Source: Klebsiella variicola (GTDB lineage Bacteria; Pseudomonadota; Gammaproteobacteria; Enterobacterales; Enterobacteriaceae). Taken from it: a stretch of 64,000 nt of DNA. Each line of letters starts with the position of its first letter. Within the stretch, counting starts at the first letter, position 1. The position numbers and the translations under genes are program-made. Below, in pieces: positions 10,003-19,847 of this stretch. The notes under the pieces were generated by a model, which was not told where the DNA came from, searched no databases, and was given only the letters and a program-made list of their open reading frames with translations. The DNA is taken from positions 4,526,001-4,590,000 of the forward strand of contig NZ_CP010523.2 of NCBI RefSeq assembly GCF_000828055.2, in the 5' to 3' direction.

Positions 10003-10186
10003 TAAATATCTCTTCTCGTGTCGTGACACGTCATTAACCCGCCTGACTCACGTTTGCGTTCTACTGGCGCTGGCGCCGCCAACGCATCGGTAGCCTGACG
10101 TATCACGGGTTAAGATGGTTTTAAAAAAGGTGAGCTTACCCTATATTAGCGCAACGCACTTACTTGGTTACAGGCCGATAACGTCC

Positions 10187-10849
10187 ATGAATGATATAGA
10201 TACACTCATCAGCAATAATGCACTATGGTCAAAAATGCTGGTGGAAGAGGACCCCGGCTTTTTTGAGAAACTGTCGCAGACGCAGAAACCGCGCTTCCTT
10301 TGGATTGGCTGCTCTGACAGCCGCGTTCCCGCTGAGCGACTTACCGGCCTGGAACCTGGCGAACTGTTTGTCCATCGTAACGTCGCTAACCTGGTGATCC
10401 ACACCGACCTGAACTGCCTGTCGGTGGTGCAGTATGCCGTCGATGTCCTCGAAGTCGAGCACATTATTATTTGCGGCCACTACGGCTGCGGCGGCGTGCA
10501 GGCGGCGGTGGAAAACCCGGAGCTGGGGCTTATCGACAACTGGCTCCTGCATATCCGCGATATTTGGTTCAAGCACAGCTCACTGCTAGGTGAAATGCCG
10601 GAGGAGCGCCGTCTGGATACCCTTTGCGAACTCAACGTGATGGAGCAGGTGTACAACCTGGGACATTCGACGATTATGCAATCGGCGTGGAAGCGCGGAC
10701 AGAAGGTCACCATCCACGGCTGGGCATATGGCATTCACGACGGGCTGCTGCGCGATCTGGATGTCACCGCCGTGAGCCGGGAAACCCTCGAACAGCGCTA
10801 TCGCCACGGCATCTCCAACCTCAAGATCAAGCACATCAACCACAAATAG
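10187..10849 (+). CDS. can: Beta-class carbonic anhydrase
   Basis: Can (220 aa) interconverts CO2 and bicarbonate, supplying bicarbonate to carboxylases; it is essential in air for E. coli. Zinc ligands C42 and D44 (I-G-C-S-D-S-R) and H98 and C101 (G-H-Y-G-C-G-G) are present; R46 completes the catalytic dyad with D44. Start at 10187 gives M-N-D-I-D-T-L, as in E. coli M-K-D-I-D-T-L; the frame is open 24 codons further upstream but that part is not conserved. It converges on hpt across a shared hairpin. Confidence 0.97.
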
Positions 10850-15805: not shown

Positions 15806-15885
15806 GCAGAAGAGTAAGAATAAAGATCGGCGCTGTGTAAAGAAGTATGCTAATTTGAAGCGTCGGTGATCTAATGGTAGAAAAA

Positions 15886-16233
15886 ATGAAGACGCTTTTC
15901 AGAACAATGGTACTCGGCAGCCTGCTTGCTCTCTCCGCCAACAGCTACGCGCTCAGCGAATCAGAAGCAGAAGATATGGCTGATTTAACCGCGGTTTTTG
16001 TGTTCCTGAAAAACGACTGTGGCTACCAGAACCTGCCCAATACACAGATCCGACGCGCGCTGGTGTTCTTTGCCCAACAGAACCAGTGGGACCTGAGCAA
16101 CTACGACAGCTACAACATGAAAGCGCTTGGCGAGGATAGCTACCGCGATCTCAGCGGTATTAACATCCCGACGGCGAAAAAATGCAAAGCGCTGGCCCGC
16201 GATTCGCTCAGCCTGTTGGCTTACGTCAAATAA
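15886..16233 (+). CDS. yacC: YacC, PulS/OutS-family periplasmic protein
   Basis: A 115-aa exported protein: signal peptide M-K-T-L-F-R-T...N-S-Y-A, then a small helical domain of the pilotin-like PulS/OutS family, with two cysteines (K-N-D-C-G-Y and K-K-C-K-A) likely joined by a disulfide. Unlike true pilotins it has no lipobox. ATG 15886 matches the E. coli N-terminus; ATG 15874 adds four residues. It diverges from cueO. In the family, pilotins guide secretin assembly in type II secretion; whether YacC does so is not shown. The ppdD-hofBC pilus genes lie 26 kb away. Confidence 0.88.
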   Translation: MKTLFRTMVLGSLLALSANSYALSESEAEDMADLTAVFVFLKNDCGYQNLPNTQIRRALVFFAQQNQWDLSNYDSYNMKALGEDSYRDLSGINIPTAKKCKALARDSLSLLAYVK

Positions 16234-16238
16234 TGACC

Positions 16239-16273
16239 GGCGCGGACGGTCACGCTCCGCGCCTTTGCCGTTT
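16239..16273 (+). terminator. Terminator after yacC
   Basis: GGCGCGGA (16239-16246) pairs with TCCGCGCC (16256-16263), followed by TTTGCCGTTT. It marks the end of yacC and the left edge of the AT-rich, non-K-12 segment. Confidence 0.7.
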
Positions 16274-16486
16274 CATTTGTCACATTTAAATATTTATATC
16301 TATATTTATTATTGTATATAAACAAACATTATTTAATTGCAAACCTATCAATTCGCCAAATAAATTAAACCCCTAATAATGATGAATGACTAAAAAACTA
16401 ATAAAATATCATTAGCCATATATTGCAAAATAAAAAGCACCCTTCTAGAATCCGGTGAAAATATCCCTACTTCATGGACTGAAATT
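16274..16486. other. AT-rich intergenic segment
   Basis: This stretch is strikingly A+T-rich (long runs such as TTTAAATATTTATATC and AAATAAATTAAAC) in an otherwise G+C-rich neighbourhood. It holds no credible gene. It is the likely promoter region of the lipoprotein/FKBP pair and has the composition typical of H-NS-bound, acquired DNA. Confidence 0.7.
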
Positions 16487-16897
16487 GTGAATATCTCGCC
16501 GACTCTCCGTATTATCCCGCTCGCCGCACTTTTATTAGTGGGCTGTAGCAATACCTCTTCTCGCCAGCAGGTAAAACCGATCACCACGCCGCTCACATCA
16601 CAGCAGCAGGCTGAGCAGGAGCGAGCGGCCAGCGAACAGGAGCGTATTGAGTCCTGCCGAAAGGCGCTGGATTCACTTAAAGAGGTGAACCCACAGCAGG
16701 CAACTAAACTCAGCAATGAGTTCAATGCCCTGGTGCGTTCGGCATCGCAATACAACAATGTGCGCGATAAAGTGGCCGATCCCACCCGACTGGGCATTGA
16801 CTCCATGTATCAGTTTAAATCCATCAAACTGTGTTCCGATATCCAGAAAACGCTGATCGATACCCTGGTACAGCGTGGTGAAAACAAACTGCCATGA
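16487..16897 (+). CDS. Putative small lipoprotein, partner of coiled-coil FKBP protein
   Basis: I do not recognise a named family. The 136-aa product has a lipoprotein signal with lipobox L-L-V-G-C (Cys at about residue 20), followed by Ser/Asn, which favours outer-membrane sorting. A Q/E-rich helical stretch (about 40-75) is probably coiled coil. Two further cysteines (E-S-C-R-K, K-L-C-S-D) could pair. The start is GTG 16487, with only a weak upstream ribosome site. It overlaps the next gene by 4 bases (ATGA), so the two are translationally coupled and probably act together in the envelope. It is absent from E. coli K-12 between yacC and speE as I remember it. Confidence 0.75.
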   Translation: MNISPTLRIIPLAALLLVGCSNTSSRQQVKPITTPLTSQQQAEQERAASEQERIESCRKALDSLKEVNPQQATKLSNEFNALVRSASQYNNVRDKVADPTRLGIDSMYQFKSIKLCSDIQKTLIDTLVQRGENKLP

Positions 16898-18840
16898 ACA
16901 AACCCGCCACGCTGACCCCTAAAGCACCACTGCTGATGCTCGTCGCGGCGCTGGCGCTTTCAACCTCATTCTACGCCGGTGCTACGCCGGCTTTTCTCGA
17001 TTACGCCCAGCAGCAAACTCAGCAAGCTCAAGCGCAAGAAGAGAAAAGCTCTGCGGCCACAGCAAAGCAAGCGTCAGACGCTCGCCAGAACGCGGACAAT
17101 AAAAAAACGACGGCCAATAACGCACAGTTGCAAAAAAGAATCGCCAGCCAACAGGCAACGATTGCGCAAAAAGATAAAATTATCCAACAATTAAAAAAAC
17201 AGCTTACCGCCACACCAGCCACGGATACATCCATTGCGAATGAGCAAGCGGCGTTAAATAATAAAATAAAGCAATTACAGCTCGCCTTAACCGCCGCCAC
17301 GGCGGAAAATGAGACGTTAATTAAAAAGGAAGTCGTTGCCCGGAATAATACTCTGCAACAGAGCCAGGCTGCCGCACTTAAGCAGATCCAACAATTAACG
17401 TCGCAGCTTCAGAGCGTCGAAGCGGAAAATAAACGGCTCAGCACCAGCCTCACCACGCTGAATACAGATAAACAAACGCTGACCTCCCGGCTGGCCGCCG
17501 CGGAAAAAGCACAGCAGACCGCACTCGGCCAGCTCACCGCCCTCGACACAGACAAGCAGACACTCACCGCCCGGCTGATGGCTGCGGAAAAAGAGAAACA
17601 GGCCGCCCTCGACCAGGCCAAAGCCCTTAACGCCGACAAACAGCCGCTGGCCACCCGACTGGCCGTGGTGGAAAAAGAGAAGCTGGCTGCCCTCGAGCAG
17701 GTTAAAGCGCTGACCACCGATAAGCAGTCGCTGACTATCCGGCTCGCCGCTGCGGAGAAGGCACAGCAGGCCGCCCTCGACCAGGCCAAAACACTGAACG
17801 CTGATAAACAGCCGCTGGCCAGCCGACTGGCCGTGGCGGAAAAAGAGAAGCTGTCCGCCCTCGACCAGGTCAAAGCGCTGACCACCGATAAGCAGTCGCT
17901 GACTATCCGGCTCGACGCCGCGGAGAAAACGCAGCAGGCCGCTCTCGACCAGGTCAAGGCGCTAAACGCCGACAAGCAGTCGTTAACCGCCCGGTTGGCC
18001 GCCGCGGAAAAAGCGCCAACAACCCGCCCTGATAACGCTGCAGCGCCAAAAAATGAGCCGCCGGAGATGGCGGCGGTTGTTGCAGCCTACCGCCTGCAGG
18101 CGGATAAAGACAACGCCCAGCTACGGATGAAAGAAGATGAAATCCAACTGCTGAGAACACAGCTTTCTGTACAGTCCAAAACGCGCAGCGGCGAGAGCGC
18201 CGCCGCCAAACTCAGCGCATCGGGAGAACAGCAGGCTTATGCGATCGGCGCCTCGATGGGAGCAGAAGCCCTTAACGTTCTCACCACCCGTCGCACTCAG
18301 GGAATTACCGTCGACGCCGGGCTGGTGCTGCGGGGTATCGAAGATGCTTTTAGCGGCCAGCTTCGTCTCGGAGAACAGGAGCGTAACAAGGCGCTGTTTG
18401 ACGTCTCGCAGCAGGTTTTCCAGAACCTGAATAAAATCGAGCAGAAAAACATCAGTGCCGGTAAGAAATATCAGCAGGCGTTTGCGCGCAAAAAAGATGT
18501 GGTCTTCAAAGATGGCGTCTACAGTCGCGTCGATTATCCGGGCAAAGGAACAATAAGCGGTAACGATCTGGTCACCGTAGTAATCAAAGAGATGCTGACG
18601 GACGGGACAGTGATCAACGATATGGAAGCGAAAGATCAGGCGCTCACCCAGAAGCTGGATGCCTATCCCCCGGTGTTTCGCGGCCCGCTGCAACGCCTGC
18701 AGAACCATGGCTCCTTGACGCTGGTCGTCCCGCCCGAAAAAGCCTATGGCAGTAAAGGATTACCGCCGAAAATCCCGCCAGGCGCCACCATGGTTTATTC
18801 CGTGCGGATAGTAGATAGCCAACCCGCACCGGCGAAATAA
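16894..18840 (+). CDS. Periplasmic coiled-coil protein with C-terminal FKBP-type domain
   Basis: A 648-aa exported protein. The signal peptide lies at about 1-30, followed by a very long, Ala/Gln/Lys/Glu-rich coiled coil (about 35-375) that ends in six full and one partial 28-residue repeats, each four heptads. Then come a FkpA-type N-terminal dimerisation-like domain (about 438-540) and an FKBP domain (about 541-640) ending V-V-P-P-E-K-A-Y-G...I-P-P-G-A-T-M-V-Y. The usual V-I-P-G-W segment reads Y-P-P-V-F-R-G and the F-D pair is missing, so prolyl isomerase activity may be weak or lost. It probably spans part of the periplasm while held near the upstream lipoprotein. Function unknown. Confidence 0.85.
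   Translation: MNKPATLTPKAPLLMLVAALALSTSFYAGATPAFLDYAQQQTQQAQAQEEKSSAATAKQASDARQNADNKKTTANNAQLQKRIASQQATIAQKDKIIQQLKKQLTATPATDTSIANEQAALNNKIKQLQLALTAATAENETLIKKEVVARNNTLQQSQAAALKQIQQLTSQLQSVEAENKRLSTSLTTLNTDKQTLTSRLAAAEKAQQTALGQLTALDTDKQTLTARLMAAEKEKQAALDQAKALNADKQPLATRLAVVEKEKLAALEQVKALTTDKQSLTIRLAAAEKAQQAALDQAKTLNADKQPLASRLAVAEKEKLSALDQVKALTTDKQSLTIRLDAAEKTQQAALDQVKALNADKQSLTARLAAAEKAPTTRPDNAAAPKNEPPEMAAVVAAYRLQADKDNAQLRMKEDEIQLLRTQLSVQSKTRSGESAAAKLSASGEQQAYAIGASMGAEALNVLTTRRTQGITVDAGLVLRGIEDAFSGQLRLGEQERNKALFDVSQQVFQNLNKIEQKNISAGKKYQQAFARKKDVVFKDGVYSRVDYPGKGTISGNDLVTVVIKEMLTDGTVINDMEAKDQALTQKLDAYPPVFRGPLQRLQNHGSLTLVVPPEKAYGSKGLPPKIPPGATMVYSVRIVDSQPAPAK
17455..18018 (+). repeat. 84-bp tandem repeats (28-aa heptad units) with 168-bp super-repeat
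   Basis: Units begin at 17455, 17539, 17623, 17707, 17791, 17875 and 17959, exactly 84 bases apart; the last is partial. Each encodes a variant of A-L-x-x-D-K-Q-x-L-T-x-R-L-A-A-A-E-K. Units 3+4 (17623-17790) and 5+6 (17791-17958) are especially alike, pointing to a recent duplication of a two-unit block. Confidence 0.93.
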
Positions 18841-18848
18841 CCCTCCCC

Positions 18849-18875
18849 CCACCGCTCTCCCCGGGCGGTGGCGGT
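18849..18875 (+). terminator. Weak hairpin after FKBP gene
   Basis: CCACCGC (18849-18855) pairs with GCGGTGG (18865-18871), then GCGGTTATTC. It is G+C-rich but lacks a T-run. The remaining bases up to speE (18876-18986) should hold the speED promoter. Confidence 0.45.
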
Positions 18876-18986
18876 TATTCCTGCCGCATTGCTGCAATAA
18901 CCGCCGTGCATCCTCATCTATAGTTGTCTATGATGTTGCACTCGTTTTACGGGTGTAACAGATGTTAACGAAGGAGGAGCCTCACC

Positions 18987-19847
18987 GTGGCCGATAATCC
19001 ACTGTGGCATGAAACGCTGCATGACCATTTTGGTCAGTACTTTAGCGTTGATAACGTGCTGTACCACGAAAAAACCGATCATCAGGATTTGATCATCTTC
19101 GACAACCGCGCCTTTGGCCGGGTGATGGCGCTGGATGGCGTCGTGCAAACCACCGAACGCGATGAGTTTATTTATCACGAAATGATGACCCACGTGCCGC
19201 TGCTGGCCCACGGCAACGCGAAGCATGTCCTGATCATCGGCGGCGGCGACGGCGCGATGCTGCGCGAAGTCTCTCGTCACCGTAGCATCGAAACCATCAC
19301 CATGGTGGAAATCGATGCCGGGGTGGTCTCATTCTGCCGTCAGTACCTGCCCAACCATAGCGCCGGGGCCTACGACGATCCGCGCTTCACGCTGGTGATT
19401 GATGATGGCGTCAATTTTGTTAACCAGACGACGCAAACGTTTGACGTGATCATTTCGGACTGTACCGACCCTATCGGTCCGGGCGAAAGCCTGTTCACCT
19501 CGGCTTTTTATGAAGGCTGCAAACGCTGCCTGAACCCGGGGGGCGTGTTCGTTGCCCAAAACGGCGTTTGTTTCCTGCAGCAGGACGAAGCGGTCGGTAG
19601 CCATCGCAAACTGAGCCACTATTTTCGCGACGTCAGCTTCTACCAGGCGGCCATCCCAACCTATTACGGCGGGATCATGACTTTTGCCTGGGCGAGCGAC
19701 AACGAGGCGTTGCGCCATCTCTCCAGCGAAATCATTCAGGCGCGCTTTCACAAAGCCAACCTGACCTGCCGTTACTACAATCCGGCAATCCATACGGCGG
19801 CCTTCGCCTTACCACAATATCTGCATGATGCTTTGTCCGCACCGTGA
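18987..19847 (+). CDS. speE: Spermidine synthase, GTG start
   Basis: SpeE transfers an aminopropyl group from decarboxylated S-adenosylmethionine to putrescine. The nucleotide-binding [10 protein letters not shown] motif lies near residues 80-90, and [10 protein letters not shown] near 160 holds the catalytic Asp. Length is 286 aa (288 in E. coli). GTG 18987 with AAGGAGGAG upstream is the start. speD follows after 24 bases; the pair is an operon, and SpeD supplies the decarboxylated substrate. Confidence 0.97.

Follow-up and report, generated by a model that had tools for sequence, protein, structure and literature searches.

The locus and its gene products

The window analysed here comprises 64,000 nt of the Klebsiella variicola chromosome (NZ_CP010523.2, positions 4,526,001-4,590,000, forward strand). 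Between yacC and speE it carries two overlapping genes, one for a lipoprotein and one for an exported coiled-coil protein with an FKBP module, whose relatives recur in gene clusters of chaperone-usher fimbriae. The pair is real and conserved, and this fimbrial link, which a sequence-only reading of the same DNA had missed, is the new and most useful lead. Both open reading frames (ORFs) were confirmed where that reading had placed them, and the start of the FKBP gene lies within the stop of the lipoprotein gene, with an overlap of 4 bases (Table 1).

Table 1. Features of the gene pair and its flanks (window positions; aa, amino acids)
Feature	Position	Strand	Basis
Lipoprotein gene, 136 aa, GTG start, predicted three-helix bundle	16487..16897	+	ORF call, alignment, AlphaFold2
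Lipoprotein signal peptide with lipobox ending in Cys20	16487..16546	+	Cys20 conserved in all 26 aligned rows
FKBP protein gene, 648 aa, exported coiled-coil protein with degenerate FKBP module	16894..18840	+	ORF call, Pfam, AlphaFold2
N-terminal motif PAFLDYA near mature N-terminus	16987..17007	+	Family forms include PALLQFA, PAFLNYA, DVLNYA
Coiled-coil region, residues 112-372, 28-aa repeats	17227..18009	+	Repeat search, shuffles, AlphaFold2
FKBP_N domain, residues 445-537	18226..18504	+	Pfam PF01346, E 1.9e-9
FKBP_C domain, residues 554-639	18553..18810	+	Pfam PF00254
yacC, flanking gene, pilotin-like	15874..16233	+	Profile match
speE, flanking gene	18987..19847	+	ORF call, sequence match
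A+T-rich intergenic stretch upstream of pair	16234..16486	.	32% GC vs 57% in the window

In the lipoprotein, Cys57 and Cys116 are invariant over the 26 aligned rows, and further invariant residues lie within the last 80 positions. The alignment excludes locus L051 (our own locus numbering), where the lipoprotein of a fimbrial pair (10074-10448) is apparently frameshifted in the signal peptide relative to L050. Ser at position +2 of a lipoprotein is the sorting rule for the outer membrane, and the Ser found here suggests that the protein would be sorted there. AlphaFold2 places helices at residues 38-67, 69-95 and 100-133, with a predicted local distance difference test score (pLDDT) of about 90 or more there, and ten lipoprotein sequences all gave three helices with high confidence. 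The protein is thus predicted to form a helix bundle rather than an extended coil. The alanine-zipper model of Lpp/OprI (NF040598) reached 14.5 bits, below its cut-off of 43. An assignment to the PulS/OutS/YacC pilotins is not supported: PF09691 found no match at E<=1, and hhalign against one YacC sequence gave a probability of 0.2 over 4 columns.

The FKBP protein begins with a Sec-type signal, as judged by eye. A regular expression for the motif near its mature N-terminus matches 57 of the 81 FKBP ORFs of at least 300 aa (81 of 83 aligned members); among the rest, inspection by eye shows many with a PALLLLTPSQL-like form or with a doubtful start. Residues 191-376 consist of 6.6 repeats of 28 aa, and the gene holds a DNA tandem array at 17477-18013. 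The heptad bias of residues 196-376 was reached by none of 2,000 shuffles, with p 0.0005 for residues 111-250 and p 0.049 for 391-445. AlphaFold2 gives helices at 33-106, 112-247, 253-372 and 390-428 with moderate confidence (mean pLDDT 67, predicted template modelling score 0.32). Counting against a coiled coil, a Fourier test over residues 81-433 found a best period of 3.50, but its power of 38 lies within the range of the shuffles (maximum 84). Export of the two proteins is supported by their signal sequences only.

A straight helix of the coil region would measure about 52 nm, set against a periplasm 20-25 nm wide, and the ORFs of the FKBP family range from 346 to 1526 aa, two fragments aside. 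A ruler or tether of fixed length, such as the periplasm-spanning one proposed before, is therefore disfavoured. Membership in the FKBP fold is clear, with 38.7 bits for PF01346 (cut-off 22) and 39.2 bits for PF00254 (cut-off 21.1).

Pairing and spread of relatives

Relatives were sought with a lipoprotein profile built from 26 rows, which already contained fimbrial members and may favour these. The searches covered a family-level sample (392 genomes, 154 genera) and an order-level sample (394 genomes, 114 genera), which overlap, and the ten best candidates per genome were scored. The profile matches 80 genomes (43 genera) of the former and 13 genomes (11 genera) of the latter. For 120 of the 128 places with a profile match, up to about 19 kb each were fetched and scanned with our own profiles, together with nine earlier stretches; of the other eight, five, the window among them, were already in the set, and three weak matches of 27-31 bits were left out. 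Strong loci are those with a lipoprotein match of at least 75 bits, 80 in number and from 53 genomes. Left out of this set are 48 weaker matches and L132, which include distant pairs as well as lipoproteins without an FKBP gene. Counts over loci include related genomes and are not independent, hence the genus and tree figures below.

An FKBP gene adjoins the lipoprotein gene in 65 of the 80 strong loci, 39 of them with a 4-base overlap, and separate occurrence in most genomes was not found in this set, which supports the joint system that had been proposed. The 15 loci without an adjacent FKBP match fall into several kinds. The match lies further away in L109 and in L082, where the FKBP-bearing ORF follows an apparent gene break; a contig edge ends the stretch before any such match in L093 and L111; and in L106 the next ORF clusters with FKBP proteins by BLAST without itself giving an FKBP match. 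The remaining ten (L097, L101, L121, L130, L131, L133-L136 and L139) have no FKBP match anywhere in the stretch. By setting, the strong loci divide into 11 of the yacC-acnB neighbourhood, 32 with an usher gene inside the fetched stretch and 37 of neither kind; the usher and yacC groups do not overlap.

Among plasmid records, tblastn finds the lipoprotein in 21 and the FKBP protein in 47, with plain FkpA-like proteins perhaps among the latter; some chromosomes are filed as plasmids. Distant lipoprotein relatives in L148 (9374-9739) and L157 (9443-9817) stand beside a second protein of one shared cluster that is not an FKBP and that carries Sel1 repeats in L157. In L160 (3860-9397), a coiled-coil protein of 1845 aa with no Pfam FKBP match follows another distant relative. 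Weak relatives without an FKBP gene lie beside rpoD- and dnaG-like genes (by eye) in L147, L151 and L159, so there is perhaps a wider lipoprotein family beyond the FKBP-paired members.

Linkage to chaperone-usher fimbriae

An usher gene lies in the stretch of about 19 kb at 32 of the 69 strong loci outside the yacC region, against 3.1 expected (3.5 for all 80). The expectation was derived from genome usher counts and stretch length and is slightly low, since some counts are only given as at least 20. These 32 loci come from 24 genomes and 14 genera; 28 share the strand of the nearest usher and 29 have an adjacent FKBP gene. A gap of only 4 bases separates the open frame of the pair from that of a fimbrial gene in four genomes, all of one genus; these distances, like those to regulator ORFs below, were measured between stop-to-stop frames and not start codons. 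Members of the family hence lie within usher clusters, the mark by which we recognise a chaperone-usher accessory gene.

One FKBP subfamily matches 19 of 5426 Escherichia coli genomes by DNA, chromosomes and plasmids included. In all four chromosomes inspected (NCTC8623, MS1494, C311 and RM11911), the pair lies within a fimbrial cluster with the gene order subunits, usher, chaperone, subunits, FKBP, subunit and then the lipoprotein ORF. The FKBP gene overlaps the next fimbrial gene by 4 bases in all four and the preceding one by 8 bases in three. Nine plasmids were inspected as well. Both genes occur in or beside fimbrial clusters on plasmids of Escherichia marmotae, E. albertii (with a broken FKBP gene), Serratia entomophila, S. 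nevei, Enterobacter and Salmonella Macclesfield, and a Winslowiella and a Pantoea plasmid carry the pair with no usher in the stretch read.

In 28 of the 80 loci, an ORF for a LuxR-type (GerE) regulator is found no more than 1.5 kb from the pair, compared with a background of 8 in 745 kb more than 3 kb away. It accompanies 21 of the 32 usher loci and 7 of the 37 lone loci, and one such regulator also has a FaeA-like domain.

The FKBP tree holds 78 modules, without L068, L069 and L071 (duplicate or near-duplicate records) and rows below 300 aa, and was made by a quick method with no bootstrap and with several long branches. The usher label needs 11 changes on it, at least five of them forced by starred branches, so that the fimbrial association looks repeated or repeatedly lost. 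The usher tree puts 28 of the 42 ushers nearest to lipoprotein relatives, a set that also takes in plasmids and some of the weaker loci, into a single clade, and the other 14 are scattered among clades that contain ushers of the window genome. Three ushers of the large clade (L050, L005 and L033) have NF011812 as their best NCBIfam model, below its cut-off, and the L050 usher matches the E. coli genes papC and yfcU by DNA.

An altered prolyl-isomerase site

The cavity of FKBPs is lined by Y26, F36, D37, W59, Y82 and F99 in FKBP12 numbering, as listed in PMC8530231. At the equivalent positions the FKBP_C domain of the window protein has I, I, N and F in place of Y26, F36, D37 and W59, retains Y82, and has Y in place of F99. 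We aligned 83 FKBP members to FkpA of the same genome, excluding L008 with its broken FKBP gene; two rows are fragments (117 and 178 aa). Y26, F36, D37 and F99 occur in none of the 83, W59 in one and Y82 in 80; exactly one of the six is retained in 81 members and none in two. The replacements are regular, being mostly V or I, I or V, N/Q/K, F and Y in the order Y26, F36, D37, W59 and F99. FkpA of the same genome keeps the usual residues in this alignment, as does FklB by eye.

The FKBP domain is thus degenerate, and the family lacks the set of cavity residues by which an active FKBP-type prolyl isomerase would be recognised. Judged from these residues, the domain is probably inactive as a prolyl isomerase. 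A single change, Y63A in SlyD, can retain 21% activity, as reported in PMC5034536. The equivalog model of FkpA (NF008150) gives 114.3 bits for the window protein, below the cut-off of 215. Calling the module FkpA-like consequently holds for domain order and fold and fails for the active-site residues.

The window locus and its genus

The window pair does not lie in an usher gene cluster; its neighbours are yacC and speE, and the nearest of the nine ushers of this genome is 384 kb away. The pair is an orphan of the module, with no fimbria nearby. On the FKBP tree, members from the yacC region form one clade of 20 rows (support 99) that is confined to the yacC-acnB region, which looks like one old settlement. 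In L040, L043 and L044 (Kluyvera) and in L072, L073 and L081, the pair lies between yacC and acnB, and neither speE nor speD was matched in the stretch; L090 has it on the acnB side of speED.

In E. coli, a query spanning yacC to speE matched in 5375 of 5426 genomes, none over 80% of the query, and the 20 matches listed extend over about 1.3 kb, from yacC to speE. The pair is therefore not there in E. coli, as the sequence-only reading had it when it called the two flanking genes adjacent in strain K-12. In the genus of the window genome, the lipoprotein is present in 12 of 20 genomes, the same ones that carry the specific FKBP protein. Between 171 and 675 bases separate the yacC match from the speE match in each of the other eight, where tblastn finds neither protein. 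Usher numbers range from 8 to at least 20 in the 12 genomes with the pair and from 4 to 10 in the eight without, kinship ignored. Four genomes of the genus (L050-L053) have a second, divergent pair inside a fimbrial cluster. In K. pneumoniae strain 176 (L188, 4001-8408), the annotation breaks the FKBP gene into short pieces, and a copy of ISKpn18 lies between it and speD; this locus looks broken, and other strains have an intact copy.

Of the seven sigma-70-like matches in 16200-19100, where 1.6 would be expected over the whole range, five fall in the A+T-rich intergenic stretch that precedes the pair; this stretch is possibly a silenced or foreign promoter region.

Interpretation

Tentatively, we read the pair as a module linked to chaperone-usher fimbriae, with a probably inactive FKBP helper and a detached orphan copy in the window. 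The lipoprotein would keep its FKBP partner at the inner surface of the outer membrane, and the N-terminal peptide of the partner may dock on the lipoprotein or on the usher. The FKBP module would serve, without catalysis, as a clamp or holdase of fimbrial subunits or of the usher itself. From its place in the yacC-speE-acnB region, where Klebsiella, Kluyvera and their relatives have it, the window copy could act in trans on a distant usher or on another outer-membrane client. A helper that holds subunits or the usher at the outer membrane would agree with four features: a gene position between subunit genes, a lipoprotein as partner, an N-terminal peptide that is conserved, and a chaperone fold that has degenerated. 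On this reading the module would be an accessory chaperone of usher machines, probably a non-catalytic one. Observed are the gene pairing, the fimbrial linkage of the family, the altered active site, the conserved cysteines and N-terminal motif, and the orphan position; membrane location, physical interaction, clamp role and client are inferred from these.

Several findings weigh against this reading. A related operon of E. coli 13TMH22 is without both the lipoprotein and the FKBP gene, and such a fimbria can therefore do without the pair; a plasmid-borne fimbrial cluster of E. coli (L034) has the FKBP gene with no lipoprotein match. The pair also stands alone, in the 37 strong loci that lie outside the yacC neighbourhood and have no usher in the stretch, and none of the 11 yacC-type loci has an usher or a LuxR-type ORF nearby. 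The eight genomes of the genus that have no lipoprotein still have their ushers. Finally, the clade of 28 pair-linked ushers contains none of the nine of the window genome, on a quick tree with long-branch warnings; the genome hence has the module without its usual partner type.

Part of this would be expected of a general envelope chaperone or tether pair that has no fimbrial function and comes near fimbrial operons via shared mobile or hypervariable sites. The lone loci favour such a pair, several lying between housekeeping-like genes such as folD and cysS (by eye), as does the persistence of the yacC clade with no fimbrial genes nearby. We nevertheless consider it rather unlikely, since the FKBP gene of E. 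coli overlaps fimbrial genes on one or both sides, the usher linkage recurs in 14 genera and across the FKBP tree, and hitchhiking does not predict a place between subunit genes. The regulator ORFs, whose open frames mostly come to within about 250 bases of the pair, and the regulator with a FaeA-like domain would suit a signalling unit, in which lipoprotein and coiled-coil FKBP protein report assembly state or envelope stress and, with the LuxR-type regulator, set fimbrial expression. A response-regulator-like ORF that overlaps a sensor-like ORF of 590 aa (by eye) a few kb from the pair in L052 (4434-6768) and L053 (3548-5885) points the same way. We regard this as improbable, because the regulator is absent from the yacC clade and from 30 of the 37 lone loci, and fimbrial operons often have regulators of their own anyway.

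Least probable is an ordinary FkpA paralogue with a long spacer, active as a prolyl isomerase near the outer membrane. Its domain order would suit this, but at five of the six cavity positions at most one of the 83 members retains the usual residue, in contrast to FkpA and FklB of the same genome, and the FkpA cut-off is missed. We return to the module linked to fimbriae, which in its full form would be a so far undescribed chaperone-usher accessory complex: an outer-membrane lipoprotein and a catalytically dead FKBP on a coil of variable length, clamping usher or subunits, Enterobacterales-wide and orphaned in Klebsiella and Kluyvera for another client. This, too, we put forward as quite possible and with reserve. 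Searches of an open-licence literature collection gave no description of the pair and none joining an FKBP or prolyl isomerase with ushers or fimbriae.

Descriptions of the chaperone-usher pathway commonly name a single chaperone and a single usher. If our reading is true, a recurrent extra component with a probably dead prolyl-isomerase domain extends this picture, and a context is given to proteins that the records consulted label no more precisely than 'FKBP-type ... N-terminal domain-containing' or 'hypothetical'.

Comparison with known systems

The closest likeness is to the periplasmic FKBP chaperone FkpA, which shares the order FKBP_N then FKBP_C, the export and 32-33% identity across the module. 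The protein of the pair differs in its long variable coil, lipoprotein partner gene, replaced active-site residues and fimbrial linkage. FKBPs of the Mip type are isomerases, which the degenerate module of the window probably is not, and they are not known to have a lipoprotein partner gene. In P fimbriae, PapJ is encoded by an extra gene after the chaperone gene in papIBAHCDJKEFG; its function is given as unknown, perhaps the protection of pilus integrity, and the passage describing it does not mention an FKBP domain (PMC11316696). In Bacteroidota, proteins with a peptidyl-prolyl isomerase (PPI) fold are parts of outer-membrane barrel machines, namely the translocon of the type IX secretion system (T9SS) and the barrel assembly machinery (BAM), according to two reports (PMC10994853, PMC12611786). 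The PPI subunit of the T9SS translocon and BamM belong to a different phylum and to different machines, and the likeness shown is limited to the shared fold. If our reading is true, the pair would be an Enterobacterales parallel to these PPI-fold subunits.
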